Part shown: positions 7,889 through 40,316 of the stretch, piece by piece
How positions within the stretch are numbered: the first letter of the stretch is position 1
How the letters are laid out: each line of letters starts with the position of its first letter
The notes under the pieces: generated by a model
Databases searched by the model: none
Seen by the model: only the letters and a program-made list of their open reading frames with translations
What the model was told of the DNA's origin: nothing
Assembly (NCBI GenBank): GCA_014871385.1
Contig: CM026428.1
Coordinates: 3,172,776-3,236,775 of the forward strand
Length of the DNA stretch: 64,000 nucleotides
DNA from: Ceratodon purpureus
Taxonomy: Eukaryota; Streptophyta; Bryopsida; Pseudoditrichales; Ditrichaceae
Direction of reading: 5' to 3'
Position numbers and translations under genes: made by a program

Positions 7889-7952
7889 TTAAGTGATCCC
7901 TCATAGGTGCTCCTCACTGCACGAAAAGCTTTGATGCACGTAACGGTTGCAG

Positions 7953-8696
7953 GGGGGAAGCACAATAAAGTGAACCAAAAAGTGCTTATCTTTTCACCAA
8001 TTTCAGCCTCTTCTGTAACCACTAGAGAAAGTGGGATCTATGTTATGTCGATGCAAGATTAAGTTTAGGATACGGAAAGTAGACTTGATCTTCTTCAACT
8101 TCCCAAAGTTGCGGGAGAAGACATTGAGTTTACAATGGAAAACGGAGACGTCGAACTCGGGCAAAGTGAATGGCCTCATTTGGAAAAGTGAACAAAACGG
8201 TTTAGGGTTATGTCTAAAATCACTTTTAATTTTGCGGGGCCCTCCGTATGTTTAAGAGGTACTGTAAAATAGTCAATTCATATACTCATTGATTGATTTA
8301 GGGTTCCAAAAGTATCGCAAGGATGCTTTTTAAGAGGGTCTTTTCCGCGATACTTTTTGTCACTTTTTTTTTACCAAACATTGTTTTTAAAATTGAAAAA
8401 AGTATCATCTAAAGACAATAGAAGGCCCCAAATGAAGAAATCAAGACTTTGGAAAAGTTCATTTTCATGATTTAGAACTAGTGGTCAAATTTAGTTTCAA
8501 TTCATGATGTTCTTTTTATGGAGGTGTATGTAAGATACCTTATGACACCTTAGAAAGTGACTAAAATGCTCAAAAACTACACCAAAATCTCCAAAATCAG
8601 CTTTGAGCACATAAACAGCACACTTCATATTCACTTGTTAATAGTCACATTTTGCACTTTGTGGTCCACTTTATTGTGCTCTCACCCTGACGTGAA
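7953..8696. mobile_element. 744-bp inverted-repeat element at the 3' end of the tandem kinase gene
   Basis: Near-matching inverted repeats: AGCACAATAAAGTGAACCA from 7959 and, reversed from the right end, AGCACAATAAAGTGGACCA; the similarity continues into AAAGTGC. The pair is bracketed by a 13-bp direct repeat GTAACGGTTGCAG (7940-7952 and 8697-8709), longer than usual target duplications. The exact right border is uncertain because 9-12 bp lie between the repeat and the symmetric part. The interior has no long frame and contains a short hairpin around 8305-8350 (AAGTATCGC / GCGATACTT). Superfamily not assigned. Confidence 0.7.
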
Positions 8697-11600
8697 GTAA
8701 CGGTTGCAGTGATTCGACAACACTGCTCATATTGGGACGAAAGTCTGGCTCATATTGAATACACTGAGCTGCAATACCCGCCATCTGAATTTCATTTTGC
8801 AAAACAAATTAGGTCATGATCAATGCCAAGGAGTATGGACGATGCCAGCATAACTGATAAGAGATCATGCTACAAGAAAACTAGTATGGACGATGCCAGC
8901 ATAACTGATAAGAGATCATGCTACAAGAAAACTATAGAATAATATAAACATCATAACTAGTCATTTTTACTTGTGAAAACAAAGAGCATGCTGTTAGGTT
9001 CAATCATTGGAAGAGTACATTACTATTATGTAGTGGTTCATGAGATGATTCTAACCTTCGCAACAGCTTTAGCAAGATAGTCAGACCCCAGTTTTGGATC
9101 AACAACCTCTTGTACCTTGTCTTCACTTAGTCTTGGTGATGCCTGTAGAAGAACAAAGAAAGTCAAGACTGACGAAAGAATAAGGATGCGATGGATTGGC
9201 ACGGGATTAACAATATGTTAATCAAATGAAAATGAATACACTGACATTCAACTTGCACTAATAGCTTCTTGAATTAGCCAAGCTCTAATTAAGGGTGACT
9301 AAGTGAACCAGGGACGCAAACATGATTGATATTACAAAAGGATGAGAACTAGCCGCAAGCGTACGTTTCATGAATTAGAGTGTATAGAAATAAATCAAAG
9401 TGAACTTTAACTGCAAATACTCACCCACTTCACAAGGATTTGTTGGCCACGAGGCCTTGTTGAGTCTGAAGCTTTTCGTCCAGTGAGGAGCTCCAAGAGT
9501 ACCACTCCAAAACTATAAACATCACTCTGAAGAGTATACACGCTTCTGTACTGACCGCTCTGTGAGGACCTACAAGAGTACAGTGAGTTAGATTACAACT
9601 TCAAAAAAACATACAGAAATGAATGGAAGCAATGATCACTTCATTTTATCACATAAAGAGAAGTACCATATCAACATGAAGGAAGTGTTCACAATGAATG
9701 AAACACACCACATTCAACCGCAAGCTACTTGATACTAAACTCACCTACTCTTACGCTGAGTATCTGATGGAAAAGGCATTCAAAACTATTCTATACGAAC
9801 TATACAAGTTGTACACTTACTCTGGTGCAATATGACCAAACATATCATGAGGACGGTTGGGGTGAGGACAGTCGACAAACGGCCTCGTTAAAATCTCAAA
9901 ATTAAGTAGTGATGAGTAGAAACAATCGTCTATCTTTGCCAAGTATGAGTCGAAAAGCAAAATATTGCAAGATCGAATGTCCCAATGGATAATATCCTTT
10001 TTATGTAGATATTCCAAACCCTTAGCAGCCCCAACTGCTATTTTCACACGCTGCATCCAATTCAAGACTTGCCCAGGCTGAGCACCTTTCTTTCCTGCAA
10101 GTACAGAGTATTCAATCCTCAGATTTGTCATTCCATTCAAAACCTCAATTTCCAACACCCAAGGTGCAACTAGTGAAGGAGCTGAGAAATCAACATCAAC
10201 TGAATAAGCCCAAAGTTTACATTTGCGACAAAATCTATGGTACAAACAGATAACACTTTGCTATTCCATGAGGAGCAAAACTAATTTAGTGAACTGCAAC
10301 ACAAACGACAAGAACAGCTTATAACTACAAAGACAAAAGAATCAGAAAATTCAAACTTGGAGTAACTGAATTACAATATGATACATCATCATACGTAGCA
10401 ATAAAAAGTATTTGCATAGATCAAAATGGATGTACCATGAAGTATATCATGAAGGGACCCCATGGTAGCATATTCATAAGCCAAAACTCGCAAATTATTC
10501 TCCAACCAATAACCTTTGAGCTTAACCACGTTTTCATGCTTCAAGCTTGATACAAGAAAGACATGTGACAGAAGCTCTGAATCTGGTAATTTACTTGCAT
10601 AGATTCTTTTGATGGCAACCACGTGGTCTTGAAGTGGAGCATGATACACATCTGCTCGTTTTCCCCGGCCAATCAATGACTTTGGTCCAAAATTATCTGT
10701 ACAGACTCTTACTTCCTCAATGGATATTTTTTCAAGATCCAATGACTTCTTCTCTAGTTCGGAATCTTCCACAGATATTTTTTTAAGGTCCAATGACTCG
10801 TCCCTGAGTGTAGAATCCTTCTCAAATCGAACTGGATGAATATCCAAGTTGTGGAATGCCCGTTTACCATCAAATTCATGCACAGTAATTCTATGAGTGT
10901 CCATGGTCCAAGCATAATTTATATTTTTATTCTTCAGTGGCAAATGAAGAATTTTCTTGAGGGCGTACTTGCTCCAAGCTTGTCTATTGGAGTCCTGCTC
11001 AATTACCTTGGAGTCCTGCTTAATCAGCTTGACAATTAACTTACGGCTTCCCTCTGTTTCCTGGTAATCAGTGCACAAAACTTCACCATGCATATGCGTT
11101 TCACCAATCTTGTCCACATAAACAATCCTTTCTCCAGGAGATAAGAATGCCCACAACATCTCCCATGTCACGCGACGTTCACTTTCCATGGTTGCACACA
11201 TGTGCTTGATTTCTTGAAACTCCTCATCCATAAAGCGCACCAAGCGGGTGATATGTTGGAGCTCTTCGTTGCTACAATTGCCATCAGCACTTGATGAAGG
11301 TTCTGAAGAGTCCAGTTTGGCCGCACAATACGCATGCCTCTCCATGACCTTTTCATAGCAGCGAAAAAGTTGTGGACCATCTATGGTTATTGTTCCATTG
11401 GGGACTAGTAGTAGTTTCTTAAGAAACGGGGAAAAAATGTTCACCTGGACCTGCTTGGGCCATGGAAGATTTTTGACGTTCAAATATACAACTTCAAAGG
11501 GTTCCATTATGCCAAAGGTATGCCATTCATGAAACATTTTACCTGCAAGCAACAAAAAGGTCCAATTTTTTTTATCCAAACAGCCTCACAAACACAATAG

Positions 11601-13710
11601 TTAGAATGCTTAATCACTATGAACTTCAACAATTTGGAAATATTTGTCAATTGATATAAACACAATTGTGAATTATTCAATGAACTCTAATACTTGACAG
11701 CTGCATTGTGCATTTGTCTACAATTAAAACAAGTTTTAAACATAATGCAGTTTGAATTCAATGAATTAGTTCAAATAAATCTTAAAAGACATTCATTCCA
11801 AATGCACGCAACCATGTTTAGTCTAAGGAAAATGCCTAAGTCAAGTTCAAACAAAGTATTTTAGAGGTTTGGATTGGTAAGGACTTACTTGTCATCAATA
11901 GATATTTCAAATGCCTTAAATGAGAACAAGCATCGCCAATAGTAGGCCTCTCCATAGGGTCCTTGCTCCAACATTTCTCAATCAAGTCCTTCAACATTGG
12001 AGGACAATAATCCGGCAGTTTTGGACGCAAACCCTCCAATACCTTCTTCTTTACATCTCTTGGTGTTCCTTCACATTGAAATGGTACTTCTCCACTCAAA
12101 ATCTCAAAACACACCATTCCAAAACTATAGATATCACTCTTAAAGTTATGCTTTGGCAACTTAATGAGGCCTCCATGACTTCTTTGATTGCTCGCAACTA
12201 GGCTTATCACTTCCGGAGCCATCCATCTAAAGGTGCCCATATTGTAAGTCATGTTGGAATATGTAGTGCTACTCTCCTTTGTCTTTGAGAGCCCAAAGTC
12301 CACCACTTTAGCTTGCACATACCCAAGTTCTCCCTCAGGAGCCTCCACCCTCTTCACAAGAATGTTCATGGACTTCAAATCCCGATGTGCAATCATTTTG
12401 TTGTGGAGATAGTTCACACCCTCACCCACTTGGAGCATAATATCTACCCCTTCCAAGATGGAGAATGGAGGAGAATCACTATTCTCCTCCAATCTACTTT
12501 GCATCATATCATGGAGATTCCCATCCATTAACTCCATTATAATGGAGCACCTCCGCTTGTTTGCATTACAACAAAACATGGAGGTAATGTTGGGATGACA
12601 CAATTGTGATAGGATCTTAACTTCCTGCAAGAAATCTTGGTTCTCCGGTCCATCAAATGTCTTCTTCGCAACTGGTGTTCCTAACCAAATCACCTTGTAT
12701 ACTTTGGCTGAAGCACCTCGTCCCAACTGCTCAGTTTTGGGGCCAGATGACACCCACTCAAACAACCTAACCAAAACACTATCGTCATCAGAAGTTGGAT
12801 TCGGTCCAACTCTTACAAGTTTGTGGAGAAGATATTTGGCCAAATCAGAATCTTTAGCTTTCGAAGAATTCAGTTCCAATGTCGCCTTCTTCAGTAGGGA
12901 TTCTGCATCTATAACGGCTTTTGTTTCCACAATTTCTGCCTCGTCCTTGCTGATTTTGACGACTTCATCCAAAGTTAGGCTTCCTGTTGCTGCATGTACC
13001 TTGGAAAGGGCAACTCTACACAACTCTAGATTGAATCCCAAAGAGGAAACATACTCCGCCACATTTGCCAGTGTCATTGCGGCTTGCATCCATGCCTCTT
13101 TGCAACAACCTTGCACAAAGCCCTCAACTTGCCTTGCCAAAGCCAGCAGGAACTTGGAGGTTTCAACCCACCTTGCTATGTCCAGAACTGAACAAAGAGC
13201 ATGTGCTCGAGAGTCTTCTATGAACAAGCTTGCACTGCAAACAACTGCTTCAAGTTTACTGGCCAGATATCCACATTGTTCATTGTTGAATTTTGGGTAC
13301 AACATCCCTTGCACTGCCTCCAAACAACGTTTTGCGAGCTTCAAGTAGATCTCAAGCGTTTCCATCCCACCAGCGTTTCCAGCTCCTGCAAAACTTGACC
13401 AGAGATTAGTTCAACCAAATGTTTGACAATGTGAAGTTAAACAATACCACTAGAGAATACACAGAAATGCATACCATGGTTTTCTTCCGGTCAATAACTG
13501 CATGCATAGCACGAAGCAGAAGCATGAAGATTGTTCCAAGAGTATTGATCTAAAAGCGCTAATCCATATGTAAGGACACACGACTAAATCAAATTACATG
13601 ATATAAAACCAACACTAAGTTCCCAACATTCCTAAAGTGGTAGGCACTTCACCTTTGCGTCCCTCAGGAGGTAAACCTAAAGGATGATTTGAAGACTCCC
13701 CTTCGGCCAT
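8671..13710 (-). CDS. Tandem kinase: TKL kinase + DUF7025-like module + PTI1-like degenerate kinase
   Basis: Exons (minus): 13710-13653, 13385-11889, 11542-10436, 10094-9821, 9569-9425, 9142-9056, 8784-8671; 3282 nt, 1093 residues, phase closed throughout. About residues 27-200 form a helical bundle. TKL kinase at about 235-517 keeps the Gly loop LGRGAS, Lys in [12 protein letters not shown] and DFG, so it looks active. About 610-760 resembles DUF7025, a module known beside AAA ATPases, mainly in fungi ([39 protein letters not shown]). About 808-1085 is clearly PTI1-like ([34 protein letters not shown]) but HRD is HWD and the DFG-equivalent is DCF, so it is probably a pseudokinase. Kinase-pseudokinase fusions are known plant immune proteins; a role in immunity is inference. 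The two halves could still be separate genes, although the linking intron (11543-11888) is phase-matched with good GT-AG sites. The stop codon lies in a transposon repeat. Confidence 0.75.
8832..8933. repeat. 51-bp tandem duplication in an intron
   Basis: A 51-bp unit starting AGTATGGACGATGCCAGCAT occurs twice head to tail (8832-8882, 8883-8933) without visible difference. It lies in the last intron of the tandem kinase gene, so it is a recent duplication. Confidence 0.9.
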
Positions 13711-22814: not shown

Positions 22815-23744
22815 TATGATATTTTGATTGAAAAATGATTTAAAAGAACCTAATATTTTTCATGTTCTCTTTTTCTACTGTAAATAAAAAATTTGGAATT
22901 ATATTTTTCAATCAACATATTTTAGACTGCCTAAGGATCAAATTAGCTTTTGTGCAAAATTATCGTCCTGGGTGCAATCAACTAAATCCAATTATTAATC
23001 AGGACTACATGAATCATTCCAATATTCACTCCTCATCAACATTATTTATTTGTCATACCGTCCCTGGGTGAAAGAGGCCCATAACATTCCAAATGCAACT
23101 TGAGGCTCCAGGCGTCAAGGAACACAATTCCCACGCCTCAGGTCTCGTCTCCGACGAACAGTCTCCAGTACTTCAAAGAGCTCAGAAACACAGAAATCCA
23201 CCCTTTCCATACCAGTTTCAACTAAACTGCTCCAAAAGCCCTCCCAAGTCGTCACACGGACGCCACCACCTTCAACATGCGACGAGTCCACTTGACTTCT
23301 GTGCCGCGCCATCCATGAAACCGGAACGGCATCCGCAGCGATGCTTGTTCAGATTCACAGCACTTTCGCTGCCGAACAAGGTGAAGTCAGAGCTTCCAGA
23401 ATTTTTTCTCAATTTATGCGGAACCTCGGACGACTTCCGCTCCGATAGGCCGAACTTGAAACCGCACTCTCAAGCTCCTTACGGAACGAACGAAGGAACC
23501 GCATACGATTTACAAGCGTCGCGCGCGCTTTCAAAGAACGCGCAAGAAAGCGGAGGAGATGGAAGACATGGTGTCGAGAAAAGCTGGCTTCGTATATGGA
23601 GTGGAACTGAAAGCTTAACATCACATTTCTGTGCTAGAAGTTTGATTGCGAGATTGAATTGCTTGTCGATTGATCGTTGCTGAAGAAAGAATCTGGTTCG
23701 AGAGTCTGATTCTAGTGTGGAGAGGTGCGAGGGTTTGGGATACG
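22815..23744. other. Upstream region of the C2-domain gene
   Basis: From about 23090 the base composition becomes GC-rich and continues into the C2 gene, so this probably holds its promoter and 5' leader. Open frames here (for example 23093-23683) show no domain and stop before the C2 start. Confidence 0.4.
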
Positions 23745-24562
23745 ATGAAGGCTGGCGGTGCGAGGAAGTTGGACATAGTGCTGCGATCCGCGGCGGGGTT
23801 AAAGAAAGTGCATACGACGAGCCGGATGGCGGCGTATGCCGTGGCGTGGATCGAGCCGAGCGTGAGAGTACCGTCGCCGATGGATAAGCGCCATGGCCGG
23901 AACCCGGTCTGGGACACGACGATCTCCATTACGCTTGATGAGCTGACCTTAGGTCGCGCTGGGAAGAACTTGCATATCGAGCTTCTAGCGCGGGGTTTGG
24001 TGTCTACAACGCCGGTAGGATTCGTCAGAGTGGACATGACGGAGCTTCTGCTCAAAGGCGCGCAGGGCGCCGCTGTGAGCGCGAAGTTTTATGATTATCC
24101 GGTACTATTGCTGCTCAATGATCTCGTTGCAGTTCTTTCCATAATTTTAATGCTCGAAACCAATATCCAAGCGATTTTTCTTGAGGATTAACCTTTGAAT
24201 TGCAGGTGACAAGACGCTCAGGCAGACAGCAAGGAATCATCAACTTCGAGCTTTCCTTGCAAGCAACGGTGTCACCCTCGCCACAGAAGAGCACATCTGA
24301 GCACGATCCTCAGGTCGTCGCTCCCGCATCATCGAATTTCATTCCTTCGGCGCCGCCATTGCCGCAACTCACCTATGAGCGCGATTCAAGCACGAGGAGT
24401 ACCTCGTCGAGTCGCAAGCCTGTTTCACAAAGACACAGAGAAATTGTCTCAGAGGATATCCGCTATGGAGATGTTGCACCTAAACGCAGTAATTCAAGAG
24501 GGACGTATTCTGCGTCAACGCAGGAGGAACATTCTCTTCTCGATACATATTCTTACTACTAA
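23745..24562 (+). CDS. C2-domain protein (SRC2/BAP-like)
   Basis: Two exons: 23745-24101 and 24206-24562 (GT-AG intron, phase 0); 237 residues. Residues about 5-135 form one C2 domain: KLDIVLRSAAGLKKVH opens the fold, a basic/aromatic segment AYAVAWIEPSVRV follows, then NPVWDTTISITLDE, and the domain ends in exon 2 with GRQQGIINFELSLQ. This layout is shared with small plant C2 proteins of the SRC2/BAP group, which bind membranes, some with calcium, and act in cold and defence signalling. Several canonical calcium-binding Asp positions are not obvious, so calcium dependence is doubtful. The C-terminal third is Ser/Pro-rich and disordered (SSTRSTSSSRKPVSQRHRE) and ends in DTYSYY. The start is the ATG directly before the first C2 strand; an upstream in-frame GTG is ignored. 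Confidence 0.88.
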
Positions 24563-25386: not shown

Positions 25387-26977
25387 CTAAGCCAGAATTT
25401 TGAGCTTGATCTTGGTCGCGGGGTCACGTTCACTGACGCGCACCTGGAGGCCGTTGCTGAACTTGGGAACGGGGAAGAAGGTGACAGTCTCCGGTCCGCA
25501 CTGTTCGAAGTCGAATTTAGTCACAAGGTGGTGCAGGAAGATGCAAATCTCGGCGCGGGCGAGTTCCATTCCGGGACAGTAGCGTGGACCGCCTCCGAAG
25601 GCGAGTAAGGGTAACTTCTTTGCGGGGTTCATGACCTCCTGCTGATGGCGCCAGGGGTTGAACTCGCTCGGGCGCTCATAGTAGGCCGGATCGTAGTGCG
25701 CTTCTCGGATAGCGCACACAGTCTTCCATCCTTTCGGGATGACGAATCCATTCAGCTGCACATCTTCGGTGGCTTCACGCCACAACAGAGTGACGGGATT
25801 GGCGAGTCGGAGCGTCTCGGTGATGACCGACTGCGTGAACCGCATGTTTTTGTAGTCATCCCACGTGAGACTCCCGCCTTCGAATTTCGACGTCTGGATG
25901 TTCTCATGCTCAGCGCGAAGCTCACTCAGCACGCGAGGGTTGTCCATGATGTACTTCACGGCGAATAGCATAGCGGAGGCTGCAGTCTCGTGCCCGGCGA
26001 ACAACATCCCGAGCACATGGCACCGCGTTTTCTCCAGCAGCAACTCCTCCGTCGTCCCCGGGAGATTCTCCTTGCGCATGTACTCCATGTAATCCGCGTA
26101 CTGATCCTCTTCGCCCTCAGGCCGGGGTTGGCTCACCACGTCGCGCTCCAGGGTCTCCACAATCCTGGCCCGCGCCTCAAGACCTTTCCTGAAATTCGTC
26201 CCCGGTAGATTGATCGGCAAGGCGAACATCCCTTCCGTCAAGGTGTAGAAATCGCTGCGCAATGCGTCATTCACCGGGCCGGCCTTCAACCTCGATCCGA
26301 GCAGGTATTGTGCTACCACATTGAATGCCAACTGCAACACCAACACATCACTCATCTCGTCAGTAAACAAAATCCAAAAAAATCTCAGAAATCTCAAAAA
26401 TGTACGTCTAATCGTGACTTAACATGATTCTCGTATCGGTGTTCACCGTTTTTGTTTCCTCGCGGATGCTAAGAGTGCCTTTGCTTGCCCACGACGAAAG
26501 ATTTTCCACCACACGCGCTTCAATCATAGGAATGCGATCCTTGAGAAGCTCAACACGGAGAGCGTTCACGAGAAACCTTCTGGTGCTCTTCCACTGCTCC
26601 CCGTGAAGGCTGAGCGCTGTGTACTCACCCAACACCTTCCGGAACGACTTCGGATACCCAGTAACGAACTGCTTCCCTTCACGAGCAAGAACCCACTTGA
26701 TCGTATCCGCCTTCGTAGTGACAATGCAAAACGCGCCCATGAGCTTCGACTTAAACATCTCCCCAAACTTCCGCTTCCGCTCCGCCATGAACGCAGGAGC
26801 GGACGTCTTCATGCTCCCCATATACTTCAACGTCTCCCCAACCAGCGGCGCACCATACGACCCCCCAGGCAACCGCTTATCCTCCTTCCTCGCCGGCCAC
26901 AGGTGCCACACCAAAACCACCGAAACGCAGAGAAACGCTGCCGTCTCCAAACCTTGCAGCACCATCTTCATCTCCAT
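25387..26977 (-). CDS. Cytochrome P450, CYP85 clan
   Basis: Exons (minus): 26977-26447 and 26331-25387, split by a 115-bp GT-AG intron in phase 0; 491 residues. It is a haem-thiolate monooxygenase with an N-terminal hydrophobic anchor (AAFLCVSVVLVWHLW), then the hinge LPGGSYGAPLVGETL. The I-helix oxygen-activation motif is AGHETA, the K-helix ExxR is ETLR, the PERF-type motif is EFNPWR, and the haem loop is FGGGPRYCPGMELAR with the Cys ligand. The G-S-x-G-x-P-x-x-G-E-T-L hinge and short intron pattern are typical of the CYP85 clan (brassinosteroid, triterpene and related oxidations). The substrate cannot be inferred. It likely resides in the ER membrane with the catalytic domain in the cytosol. 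Two further Met codons lie at residues 3 and 5; the first was used. Confidence 0.95.
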
Positions 26978-27300
26978 CTCAAATCAACCCCCAACTCAAT
27001 CCCACTCTCCACACCAAACTGGACCCTTCAAAAGAGTCCCCCCTGAGACTCCAGAAAATAATTCCGAAAGGGATTCACTTCCTCCCTTAAATCAAAAGGG
27101 CTATTAACAGCAATGCCACTAAACGTGCCACTTAACGTGCCACCCAGAGAACGATTTACAAAAAAGCTAGACTGAACCGAAGAAACTACCGACTTAATTA
27201 AGAAGACCGTGCTTGTGAACTTAAAAAGCAGTGGATCAAGAGTAAGGTATTCCAGAGAAATGGGCCACCAAGACAATACTTCCAAAAGGGATACTATAAT

Positions 27301-29270: not shown

Positions 29271-32259
29271 TTACGATGCTTCATCATTGCCGTCGACATC
29301 ATCGACCTCTAATTCTGAAAGCATGGGCACAAATGTGCAGCAGAAAGCTTCACGGTCTTTCAGGACCAAGGATGAGCCATCTGGATTCCACTTCAGATCA
29401 GACACTGCAAAGTGTGTGAGGGGAATGTTAACACAAGCAGCACCACTCGGTGTCCACATATACAGATGAGGAGTTCCTGTGCAGATGGCCACACGGGGGA
29501 ACATTGGATCCCAGGCTGCGGCGCGAATTGGATCCTTATGGATGAGAAGAGCAGCAAGCTCTAGTCGTGCTACATCCCAGATCCACAGAGCAGTCGGCAT
29601 GTTGTCATTGCGTGTGAAGATGTAGTGGCTATCTGCACTCCACGCCATCAAACCTGCCACAAACGAGCAACACAATATCAGACTCGAACTGAATCTAGAA
29701 ATCTACGACTAAATTCCATCGCGCCTTTACTGAAACATGTCGTCCTAGTTCTTGAAACATGATGAGAACCAGAAAAAACAATAGTAACAGATTTATATTG
29801 ATGGGTAGGTTTATCATGTAAAAGCATTGAAAAAGAAGAGCAAATATAAGCAGGAAGTGCTTACCGATGCCTTGTTTTGGGTTGGGTTTATCAGGCAGAG
29901 GCTTCTGTGATGGGACAGATATCGGCACTTCAGCTACTGTATACCGTACCCTTGTCCTAGTGTCATTCGGAGAACCTATTCACAAGTCAAAATCCCCACA
30001 CATAAACATTCAAGCAAAACATCACATTTTTTGGAACCGCTTCCATTCTCAGCTGATAGCGAACCTATCTCATTCAAGATCAAATATCTACTACTGCACC
30101 AAACTCGTTCCGACGAAACGGCCCTGCAAATGGATTGCCCCAGCAGAAACACAACTTCGCGCTTCCAGCAAGAACTCAATGAGTCGAAGTCGCCAGTTAC
30201 TAACTTCACGGCAGTGACAGAATGTCAAAGGTAAAGACTCATCCAATAAACATGGCAATATCATCATTAAGAAAAGAGTTGTACCTCTCATTCTAGTCAT
30301 GTCACCAGGTACAGAAGTCCCATTCATGAACATAGGTTGCATGTCAGCATTCCAGGCTTCCTCAATTTCCTGCATATCGTCGAGAAAGTAGTAACAGCAT
30401 TAGGTAAACGACTCCACAGCATGCACTTTGTGTAAAGAGAAAAAAATTAAGCTGACATACATCCCTCAAAGGAACTGCTAAAACCACTAGACTCTATTCT
30501 AAACCACTGATATTATTCACACCTGGGCTATGAACATTGAACAGCGATACATCTCTACTTTCAAATGATCACTGCATCAGCAACTGGAATTGCAACAATA
30601 ATATACTCTCAACGCTATAGACCAACTCCAGAACGCAAGCCTACAACTGTAGCTTCACTAGTTTGGCTTGGCTTACAAGGCTGGAACATCAATCTGATAT
30701 TTCCATTTCACATGTGTCACATCATTCTGCGATCTGCGATGCTTGAAGGATTTATCATGAAGGTTCTCACCTTGAAGACAACAGCGTTTGAAGGCCCCTT
30801 GACAGCAAACGGATGACTGAATTCAGCGACTGGCTTGAATGTGAGGTGATTTAACGCACGAACAACTTGATCATAACTGCCACATCCTAAAAATTGGCCA
30901 CATGGAGACCAAGCTACTGTCTTCAACCCTAATGCGTTATCATACGCTGAGTACCTGAATAGGCAACGGCCATCTGGGGAATAAACTAGCACCTGTTCAA
31001 ATCAGGTTGGAGGTCAGCTTGCAGCCCTTACTCTTTTAAATGCACGGAAGGAATCCAAGTGATGTGATCCGGACCTGTTTGCTTTTAAAGTCGGTAACTA
31101 CACATTCAAGATAATTTTGATTTGAAGCGATAGAAAAACATAGATACTACGTGAGACATAAAGCAAGGACGAGAAATTAGACAGCATATTGATACTGGAG
31201 AATAGTACCTTATATTCAAGAGGTGAATCCCAGACAGCTATGTTGCTATCAGTAGGTGACCATTCCAAATCCGCCAAATCCACGGTGTCAGCTCCAAAAG
31301 TTCCCATTGCTTCCCATCCTCGACATGACAACAGGTTAATGTAGTCCTTGCAGTCTCGTCTTGTTGCGATTGCAGCATACATGCCATCTTTCGTGAAGGA
31401 AACAGCACGGGAGGCATGTTTTGGCCAGGGCACATGTACACAAGCCGTACTGACCAATGACCAGACGGTCAGCCGCAGTTGGAAGTCTGCGGTAGTGAGG
31501 ATATGGCGACTGTCAGGGCTCCACCTGTTGTTCAACCAAAGATTATTTCTCTTGTGTTACGTCTGACGAACTGCAATGGCTCTGAAGATATACAAACAGC
31601 TCTTAGAGCTGATGAAGGTATACAATATGCACTGTTACAAACGCGATCTAAGTTCTAAGCACTGCTTTAATTGCTTTAGCCCTAATGCTCGTGCAAGTGG
31701 ATTCAACTGATCAGATCTGCACAATGTCCGGTAAAGTCAGGCGTCTGCAATTTCCAAGCCTCTAAATGGATAGCATCTCCAATGCAATATAGTCCTAAAA
31801 TTTACCTCGCATGAGATATACCGACGGATCCATCGTCAATCTTGCAAGTCCATTCAGGCTGTGAGACAGACCATGCCTGGACCATAGCCTTCTTGAAAAG
31901 ACCACAAAGGACGTACTCAGAGTCCGGCGCCCACTCCACATAGCTAATCTTATCCAGGCACGAGTACAACTGCATCACCTGCATTCCCACACCAATCCTT
32001 AGAACTCTCCCCGCAACCATTCCCACTCATCCAACAAAAAATTCAAAACCTATACTAAATTCACAACTCAAAACACCAACACCTCCACAGAAACTCACAA
32101 CTAAAAACTCCCATCCACTTCCAACACGAAAGATCGCCTCACCTTAAGAGACGCAACATCGCGAATGACAAGCCGGTAGTCCACCGCCACAGCCAGGAAC
32201 CTCGCATCAGGAGAAAATACACAATGCCCGGAGTGCTTGTACGTGTCGCTAAACTCCAT
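29271..32259 (-). CDS. WRAP73: WRAP73/WDR8 WD40-repeat protein
   Basis: Exons (minus): 32259-32143, 31978-31806, 31524-31209, 30992-30771, 30369-30285, 29975-29865, 29653-29271; 1407 nt, 468 residues, phase closed. The sequence follows animal and fungal WRAP73 from end to end: MEFSDTYK start, CVFSPDARFLA, LDKISYVEWAPDSEYVLCGL, EWTCKIDDGSVGI, DCKDYINLLSC, LGLKTVAWSPCGQFLGCGSY, and RNDNMPTALWIWD near the C-terminus. It should fold as beta propellers. With the MSD1/SSX2IP partner, WRAP73/WDR8 anchors microtubule nucleation complexes; in Arabidopsis an MSD1-WDR8 complex works at cortical nucleation sites. The start was chosen by homology; 17 in-frame codons precede it in a longer frame and are probably leader. 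Confidence 0.95.
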
Positions 32260-37769: not shown

Positions 37770-39770
37770 TGAAGTTGGAGGGTCAATGAGGACAGTGCCA
37801 ATGTGGACCATATGGTAATACATATTTTTTAATTTTGGAAAGACCATTAATTGTAAAGTTAGCAAAATGTCTAATTCTTTTATCTTCAAGCAACAAAAAG
37901 AAAGAGCAAGTAGATTGATTAATATATATTGTTATGATTGTATAAGCATTTATATTTTGAAGTAATAGTTTGATCTAATATAATATTTAAATTTGAGCCA
38001 TTTTTCACAAAGTAAATCATGTTTATTTATTTATTTTTATTAACAAGAAAATGATTTTTTTAATTATTAAAATAAATAAATAAATCCACTTCAAACATAT
38101 TTATTTGATAGGAAATTGGCTAATTAATCTATATTTCAACAAAATTAATGTAATTTTATTCATTGAATAATTAAACAAAAATTCAATCAGTTTAAATCTT
38201 TTTGTTCTATTTTAGTATGAATTTTTAAAATATGAAAATTAATAAAAATTAAAAATTCAAGATTGTTTGATAAATAAGATATTTCAAAAGATATTAGTAA
38301 ATTTATAATTGCTACTATTTGGTTGATAGCAAAAAAGTAGGCACTACGGAATAGAATGAATGATCACTTATTTAAAATACATAAACGACTTATTAAAGTT
38401 TGATGTAAGCTGATTTCATTTTTGTAAGCACGAAGAATTGGGTGGATAATTTTGACGTAAAGGTTTTTTTGCAAAGAGAATGATGGTATATAAGGTTACA
38501 AGAGGCTAAATTATAATATTGTATTGTAAAATTATAATATTCTACAAAAATATACCAACATTATCAAACACTTCAATGGTTAAGCAAGTGTATCATTCTA
38601 TTGAGTTTATATATTATGGTTATGGAATTAATGCAAAACATGGCGGTTCAAAGAAAAATTTGTAACTTTTAGTACTAAAGGATAGATGTAAGTCATGCAT
38701 CTTAATAAATGAACTAATCTTTAATAACCATCTACATATGTATATAATTTTTAACAATATCACATTGTATTTGAAGGTTTAAACAAGAATCAAATATAGA
38801 TGATTTGAATTTGAATCATGTACAATGATGTCATACTATGTGTATGCAAAGGTATTCAAACATGAGATGTTTTAAATTAGAAGCTAACATAGATTGAGAT
38901 ATTAAAATATAAATTTTATTAATATTTTAAGATGCCTATATATTTTAATATTTTGTATATATATGGTTTGTAATTTTTATTATTTATTGAAACTCAGATA
39001 TTATTGATAAATAATTATAAAAGATTTAGTACTATTTTTTTTCATCCAAGAATAAAAAATATTTCATAATATACAATTTATCATGATACAACTTATAATT
39101 TTATTAAATTCAAAAATTTCGTCAAAGGTTCAAATGGCATTAAGTGTTATCTTTATTAACTTTTTTCATTGAAAAATAGAAAAAATAAAATTCAATGACT
39201 TGTATAATTCTTTTTCTAACCATTTTTCTCAATTAATGTAATTTAAATGCAATTTAATTGAATCAAATAAATTCAATTTTTCTATATTCAAATCAAAAAA
39301 TTTAAAAATTGTCATTATTTTTGGAGATTATATCATATAGAGATGACAAAGAGATTGGTGAGCATCAATAGAAAAAATGGGACATAGGATATAATGAGAA
39401 TGTAAATAATGTAAAAGCTTTGGAGTTAGTATAGAAGTATATACATGAACTAAAGTAAATACATATAAGTCATTTATATGATTGATATTTATCTATTTTA
39501 AAATTTATATGTGATTTATATTCAACAATTTGATCTTTTTAATATTCATCTATTTAAAACTTTTGGACTTGTAACATCAACAATATGATATTTTTTTAGC
39601 ATAGAAAAATGCCTTTTCAAATAGATATTCTAAGATAAGTGCTTGAATAAAAAATTTATGTGCCTTAAATATGAAATTACACAATTAAAGTATTGGACAT
39701 GCATGATGCTACATATAAATTTTGAAGAAATAGAATAATATCCTCCATTATTTTCCACTAAGTTACAAGA
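37770..39770. other. AT-rich gene desert
   Basis: About 2 kb of strongly A+T-rich sequence with mono- and dinucleotide runs. No open frame of interest, no inverted repeat pair noticed. Confidence 0.6.
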
Positions 39771-40316
39771 CTAAACAATGCATTCCATTGTGGAGAATAA
39801 AAGAAAGAGAAAGCCAATTGATAAATTTGTTAACCAAATTCTACTTAAGGAAATATTAAGTACAGAAAGTGCGTCGGAGAACACTACAGAATATTCTACT
39901 CTAGCATTTACAAGGAAATACAAAAGTTCACCACATCCACTCTTCGATTGATACCTAGATGATACTGAGCCTATACACAGGCGGGTACCTCGATAAATGG
40001 ATAGAACTCCGAAGTCGCACCATGGCCTAGGGAGAATACCCAAAACCGTCACCCATCCTGCATCGGACACAGTCTAGTACGAGGCTACATTTCCATCGCT
40101 AAAATCTTTGTAATGTTGAGATCGTGTCGGTTTTGGGTGTGCATTCCTTTGCAGCTTCAAAAAACAGAGCTCAAGCACGATTGCAGCGGAATCTCGGCTA
40201 TGGCGTTGTAAGATTTGTAACCCTAGGGAACAAACGAGAAGCAGGATCCGGATGGAATGCTGGTGATCGTGAAGCGGTTTGTGCATCTGAGAAGAAAAGC
40301 TTGAAAGGCGTCTCGG
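39771..40316. other. Presumed 3' region of the remorin gene
   Basis: Base composition returns to normal just downstream of the remorin stop. Frames here are short and show no domain; it probably includes the remorin 3' UTR. Confidence 0.4.

Follow-up and report, generated by a model that had tools for sequence, protein, structure and literature searches.

A moss gene predicted to join an MLKL-like kinase, a DUF7025 domain and an RLCK-VIII-type kinase in one protein

Introduction

Does a single gene of the moss Ceratodon purpureus encode two kinases with a further domain between them and, if so, what kind of protein would this be? Cereal tandem-kinase proteins (TKPs) work as immune receptors. 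In the current view they combine an active kinase with a decoy, and the steps from signal to cell death are still under study. An earlier note on the stretch of DNA analyzed here, 64,000 nucleotides in full and from now on referred to as the window, had described an independent non-angiosperm tandem kinase in which a DUF7025-like insert separates an active kinase from a PTI1-like pseudokinase. We rebuilt the gene and compared its parts with profile and structure databases and with known kinase fusions. Our preferred reading, held tentatively and with low confidence, is that an MLKL-like kinase may be held inactive by DUF7025 and an RLCK-VIII look-alike sensor, all combined in one immune fusion protein.

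Results

Gene model and domain order

The rebuilt gene lies on the minus strand and consists of seven exons that encode 1093 codons plus a stop, with matching phases at all joins and GT-AG borders in all six introns. The frame stays open over 3282 bases across the seven exons and the kinase motifs are conserved. The longest open run of the region comprises 524 codons, whereas the longest in any of 2000 Markov shuffles reached 260. Two complete kinase domains are present in the one predicted protein, found by Pfam as two stretches and by PDB alignments that run end to end. The architecture is thus real at the DNA level, and the tandem kinase described earlier (seven exons joined in phase, 1093 residues, two complete kinase folds) was recovered in the rebuilt gene as well as in both types of search. 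Exon 1, with its 58 bases, is the least certain part of the model, Met27 within exon 2 being a possible alternative start. Coordinates of all features are collected in Table 1.

Table 1 Features of the gene and of its 3' end, in window coordinates.
Feature	Position	Strand	Description
Exon 1	13653..13710	-	Residues 1-19 plus one base of codon 20; defined solely by an ATG and a GT donor, domain-free
Exon 2	11889..13385	-	N-terminal stretch and entire kinase 1; within the 524-codon open run
Intron 2	11543..11888	-	Phase 1; joins the two halves
Exon 3	10436..11542	-	Linker, DUF7025 and kinase 2 N-lobe; one open frame
Exon 4	9821..10094	-	HWD catalytic loop, DCF motif, altered activation segment
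Exon 5	9425..9569	-	From gene rebuild
Exon 6	9056..9142	-	From gene rebuild
Exon 7	8671..8784	-	Stop codon included; final codons within inverted-repeat arm
Residues 21-236	12736..13383	-	Place and approximate length as pre-kinase part of AtMLKL3
Kinase 1, residues about 237-516	11896..12735	-	MLKL-like; top PDB matches 6ka4 and 6lba; HRD and DFG kept
DUF7025, residues 635-759	10821..11195	-	PF22942 above gathering score
Kinase 2, residues about 793-1086	8695..10721	-	RLCK-VIII type; exons 3-7 with introns; 5xd6 E 9e-92
Inverted repeat	7950-7985 and 8654-8689		Two 36-nt arms with 86% complementarity; overall length 740 bases

Kinase 1 and the stretch ahead of it

Among the best 60 of 151 PDB matches of kinase 1, the leading entries were 6ka4 (144 bits) and 6lba (141 bits), titled 'F22L4.1 protein' and 'protein kinase family protein', which we take to be the Arabidopsis MLKL proteins AtMLKL3 and AtMLKL2, respectively. 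The next matches in this set were roco4 (111 bits) and MAP3K9 (108 bits), giving the MLKL proteins a lead of about 30 bits in a classification drawn from the PDB alone, where plant kinases are few. The same top matches were obtained when the ranking was repeated with a clean DNA reference. The distance from APE to the next Lys/Gly-x-Asp is 23 residues in kinase 1, 18 in AtMLKL3 and 20 in AtMLKL2, compared with 11 in roco4 and 9 in MAP3K9. Kinase 1 can thus be called MLKL-like in the sense of a best match, as opposed to a placement in a tree with plant kinomes. It has HRDLKSMN at 353 and DFG at 382, and Ala replaces the third Gly of the nucleotide loop. The HRD and DFG motifs noted earlier for this kinase were therefore found, while its likeness to MLKL and the stretch in front of it had been overlooked.

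This stretch, residues 21-236, comprises 216 residues and is about as long as the corresponding part of the AtMLKL proteins; residue 237 of the present protein aligns with residue 240 of 6ka4. From its position, its length and the type of the kinase that follows, residues 21-236 may be HeLo-like. The alignments with the AtMLKL proteins leave these residues uncovered, and searches with residues 21-236 gave no match in Pfam (where matches above E 0.1 are mostly removed by the HMMER filters), PADLOC or PHROGs. The Pfam library used presumably contains both MLKL_NTD and DUF1221; neither of the two could be assigned to residues 21-236 by a profile match. Against PDB sequences, a single meaningless match to a TetR chain was returned (E 0.89). 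Two AlphaFold runs carried out without an alignment reached pLDDT values of 38.7 and 43.2, too poor to use, and drew helices over residues 21-236. In the first model, the N-lobe of kinase 1 likewise appears as helices although it must consist largely of strands, and the helices therefore provide no evidence. A hydrophobic-moment scan of the N-terminus gave its highest value at residues 28-45, which proves nothing.

These observations bear on the strongest of the competing explanations, namely that the protein is a tandem kinase of the cereal type and nothing else. Kinase 1 would then signal, kinase 2 and DUF7025 would form an integrated decoy, output would run via a helper NLR or phosphorylated substrates, and the N-terminal stretch would serve for docking and not as a membrane executioner. 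The architecture does fit TKPs and Lr9 with its integrated domain, and residues 21-236 have no HeLo sequence match in Pfam or the PDB. We nevertheless regard this explanation as somewhat unlikely, given that the MLKL proteins come out nearest to kinase 1 among the best 60 of 151 PDB matches, whereas clades 1-10 of the TKP kinases surveyed in 2018 correspond to RLK families (PMC6170490), and given that the N-terminal extension has the size of that of MLKL.

Kinase 2

The second kinase aligns end to end with its best PDB match, 5xd6 (310 bits, E 9e-92), followed by the next match at 170 bits. The residue numbers given for CARK1 in PMC6006248 fit 5xd6 when counted from N204, and 5xd6 was therefore taken as CARK1, an RLCK-VIII kinase. 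The PTI1-like character suggested in the earlier note is borne out in that the closest similarity is to an RLCK-VIII kinase domain. The two kinases of the protein share 26% identity and their best matches fall into different families, on which grounds an origin by duplication was rejected.

The catalytic motifs of kinase 2 read HWD at 924 and DCF at 944. In CARK1 numbering, K97, N204 and D217 are kept along with the Asp of HRD, the Arg of HRD is replaced by Trp, and the Phe-Asp following D217 is replaced by Cys-Phe (DFD to DCF). At the αC position kinase 2 has His and CARK1, itself without Glu, has Gln, while the third Gly of the loop is Ala. In the activation loop, S233, T234 and T239 of CARK1 are changed to Pro, Asn and Met. 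For CARK1, it is reported that T234A or T239A reduces kinase activity much like the dead N204A mutant and that S233A has no observable effect (PMC6006248). Among the 92 TKPs surveyed in 2018, conservation within the pseudokinase halves is lowest at D166, D184 and G52 (PMC6170490). Kinase 2 keeps all three (PKA numbering, authors' mapping) as well as the Lys and N171. The term pseudokinase, which had been applied to this half as a fact, was hence rejected as such, the Lys, both Asp and the Asn being kept even though the Arg of HRD and the loop Thr residues are lost. A pseudokinase remains a plausible description at the level of residues. Kinase 2 is an altered kinase that probably cannot be activated, and it can probably bind ATP.

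The RLCK-VIII relationship could also point away from immunity. The protein might combine an RLCK-VIII/CARK-like regulator of hormone or oxidative-stress signaling with a Raf/MLKL-like kinase, DUF7025 serving as a scaffold. CARK1, the closest solved relative of kinase 2, is an ABA receptor kinase, and RLCK-VIII members function in pollen tubes and drought. Kinase 2 has, however, lost both activation-loop Thr residues that CARK1 needs, which makes a conserved catalytic role unlikely, and we consider a non-immune regulator doubtful.

The insert between the kinases

Residues 635-759 match PF22942 (DUF7025) with E 6.4e-7. The score is 30.0 bits with the full protein, 34.6 bits with the insert and 34.8 bits with the domain alone, at a Pfam gathering score of 27 bits. 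A chance match was rejected, as PF22942 matched none of five controls (the reversed insert and four shuffles), whose other matches had E values of 0.033 or worse. The resemblance of the insert to DUF7025, for which a profile search had been proposed as the test, is in this way confirmed. Residues 519-634 searched alone gave no Pfam match. DUF7025 presumably accompanies AAA ATPases in fungi; Pfam found no AAA domain in the whole protein. The insert had two PHROGs matches only, with E values of 0.19 and 0.3, and a pattern search in genome contigs returned 12 stretches, none of them a relative. No paper in the literature searched for DUF7025 names the domain, and the present gene offers a testable setting for it.

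Two repeats were observed within exon 3. A tandem repeat of 21 nt at 10987-11028 produces a near-duplicated heptapeptide inside DUF7025, and an imperfect repeat is found at residues 768-794, in the linker ahead of kinase 2, as though the beginning of the kinase 2 region had undergone duplication.

The join between the two halves

All of kinase 1 is located in exon 2, and DUF7025 together with the N-lobe of kinase 2 is located in exon 3; the tandem kinase therefore needs one join only, namely intron 2. Splice sites were ranked with a generic, unfitted plant matrix, among the 367 GT and 363 AG dinucleotides in 5500 bases. With this matrix, the donors of introns 1 to 6 ranked 20, 3, 45, 21, 13 and 6 and the acceptors 5, 1, 4, 11, 3 and 116, which places intron 2 at 3/367 for its donor and 1/363 for its acceptor. 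The two worst-ranked sites are donor 10435 and acceptor 8784. Both are supported by the similarity to CARK1, which continues on either side of each, with a three-residue gap in the alignment near donor 10435.

The locus might instead consist of two neighboring genes, one for an MLKL-like kinase that would end shortly past 11888 and another that would begin in exon 3 and encode DUF7025 and the RLCK-VIII-type kinase. Each half is complete in its own exons, and when reading continues through the donor of intron 2 the frame stops after 17 residues. Against this, the join matches in phase, and a mere 346 bases, with a GC content of 0.30, one AATAAT and no TATA[A/T]A in a search of these bases, lie between the halves. 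Two separate genes were rejected as the main reading on the splice ranks of intron 2 and appear very unlikely. The phase and the splice ranks of intron 2 argue for fusion of the halves in the transcript and, judging by the splice evidence, both kinases and DUF7025 most likely form part of one protein.

The 3' end and the rest of the window

The inverted-repeat element at the 3' end of the gene looks like a small transposon, and GTAACGGTTGCAG is found near each of its arms (7940, 8697). One arm contains the stop codon (8671-8673), and the last few residues of the protein are therefore probably derived from the element. The gene might also be a recent chimera, or be in decay, without a function that is maintained. 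The altered motifs of kinase 2, this element of about 740 bases holding the stop codon and the lack of a second copy in the 64-kb window (tblastn, E 1) would fit such a history, which is improbable in view of the open frame and conserved kinase motifs described above.

In the last intron, 8811-8912 consists of two tandem copies of 51 nt that are 82% identical. Elsewhere in the window, a cytochrome P450 gene is encoded in two open frames on the minus strand (25387-26983; Pfam p450 E 5e-49 and 5.5e-10) and a C2-domain open frame on the plus strand (23658-24191; E 1.4e-5, 25.7 bits, cut-off 22). A WD40-like beta-propeller fragment on the minus strand (29271-29702) is indicated by weak matches, all below curated cut-offs. 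Positions 38001-40000 are very A+T-rich, with the lowest GC content (0.227) of the 32 blocks of 2000 bases, followed by 0.308. NCBIfam gave 17 matches, all below its curated cut-offs, and scanning the window for Rfam families and tRNAs gave none. Pattern searches for relatives in viral contigs returned one stretch that is not a relative and, in a second search, none.

Discussion

We hypothesize that the encoded protein begins with a stretch that may be HeLo-like, continues with an MLKL-type kinase and DUF7025, and ends with an RLCK-VIII-type kinase that would not be switchable through its own activation loop. The C-terminal half, DUF7025 and the RLCK-VIII look-alike, would act as sensor or bait and keep the MLKL-like half inactive. 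An effector or an upstream kinase acting on the bait would release kinase 1, which would then phosphorylate itself or a partner. The N-terminal part, once freed, could oligomerize at membranes, or an NLR could be triggered. This reading draws on the splice ranks of intron 2, the MLKL proteins as top matches, the spacing after APE, the length of the N-terminal stretch, the intact HRD and DFG of kinase 1 and the losses in the loop of kinase 2, as well as on the precedents of Lr9, Pm13, WTK1 and tomato PTI1. Against it stand the lack of a Pfam match for residues 21-236 and AtMLKL alignments that stop short of them, the action of RLCK-VIII members outside immunity (ABA, pollen), and the description of plant MLKL across seed plants (PMC9950082).

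An MLKL-like kinase beside an RLCK-VIII bait would place a sensor and a possible executioner in one chain. In animals, the jobs of kinase and executioner are shared by RIPK3 and MLKL. A more specific version of our reading is a single-chain, necroptosis-like device in which a catalytically active MLKL executioner is coupled to an RLCK-VIII bait and a DUF7025 sensor. We rate this version as unlikely; if true, it would illustrate the possible form of an ancestral plant MLKL with catalytic activity. The gene would also make it possible to ask directly if the loss of catalysis in plant MLKLs was secondary, and if fusion to RLCK-VIII occurred on several occasions, in WTK1 and in the present gene.

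Comparison with known systems

Plant MLKLs form a family that is described from across the seed plants, with a resemblance to animal MLKL and a role in TNL immunity (PMC9950082). Kinase 1 shares with AtMLKL3 and AtMLKL2, its best PDB matches, a long stretch after APE (four chains compared), and about 240 residues precede the kinase there. The catalytic motifs differ, since AtMLKL3 has HGE and GFG and AtMLKL2 has HGD and GFG, whereas kinase 1 has HRD and DFG and thus lacks such degenerate motifs. In the present protein, DUF7025 and a second kinase follow.

In WTK1/Yr15 and Rpg1, as in the present protein, an altered second kinase comes after the first. In the 2018 survey, WTK1 appears to be a fusion of WAK and RLCK_8, and none of the 92 TKPs has an additional conserved domain (PMC6170490). 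The present protein carries DUF7025, which sets it apart from the Klymiuk 2018 set, and its kinase 2 keeps D166 and D184. One TKP was already listed for Physcomitrella in 2018, so that of the independent non-angiosperm tandem kinase announced earlier, the tandem kinase stands and the newness is less than implied.

Extra domains do occur in tandem kinases, as can be seen from Lr9 (WTK6-vWA), which carries vWA/Vwaint; this extra domain and the second kinase of Lr9 are hypothesized to be decoys (PMC10260399). DUF7025 resembles this non-kinase domain in being part of a tandem kinase. In Lr9, vWA/Vwaint is C-terminal and the kinases are of the LRR_8B type, whereas DUF7025 lies between the kinases. 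Wheat Pm13 combines an MLKL_NTD with a complete kinase and gives mildew resistance (PMC10951266). It likewise has an N-terminal domain before a kinase with its key residues, the likeness of the N-terminal parts being suggested by our reading of residues 21-236, but it contains one kinase of the RLK/Pelle DLSV type, whereas the present protein has a kinase 1 of the MLKL type, two kinases and DUF7025.

Kinase 2 corresponds to CARK1 and PTI1, the RLCK-VIII kinases, in its end-to-end alignment with CARK1 (5xd6), and differs in the change of the HRD Arg to Trp, of DFD to DCF, in the loss of T234 and T239 and in its fusion to the rest of the protein. In tomato, silencing of PTI1 (RLCK-VIII) lowers flg22-induced ROS and resistance (PMC10441961), and kinase-type NLRs are reported to be expanded in mosses (PMC10952240). 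Taken at the sequence level, the present gene looks like a variant of the tandem kinases and kinase fusions, with an MLKL-like kinase 1 in which HRD and DFG are intact.
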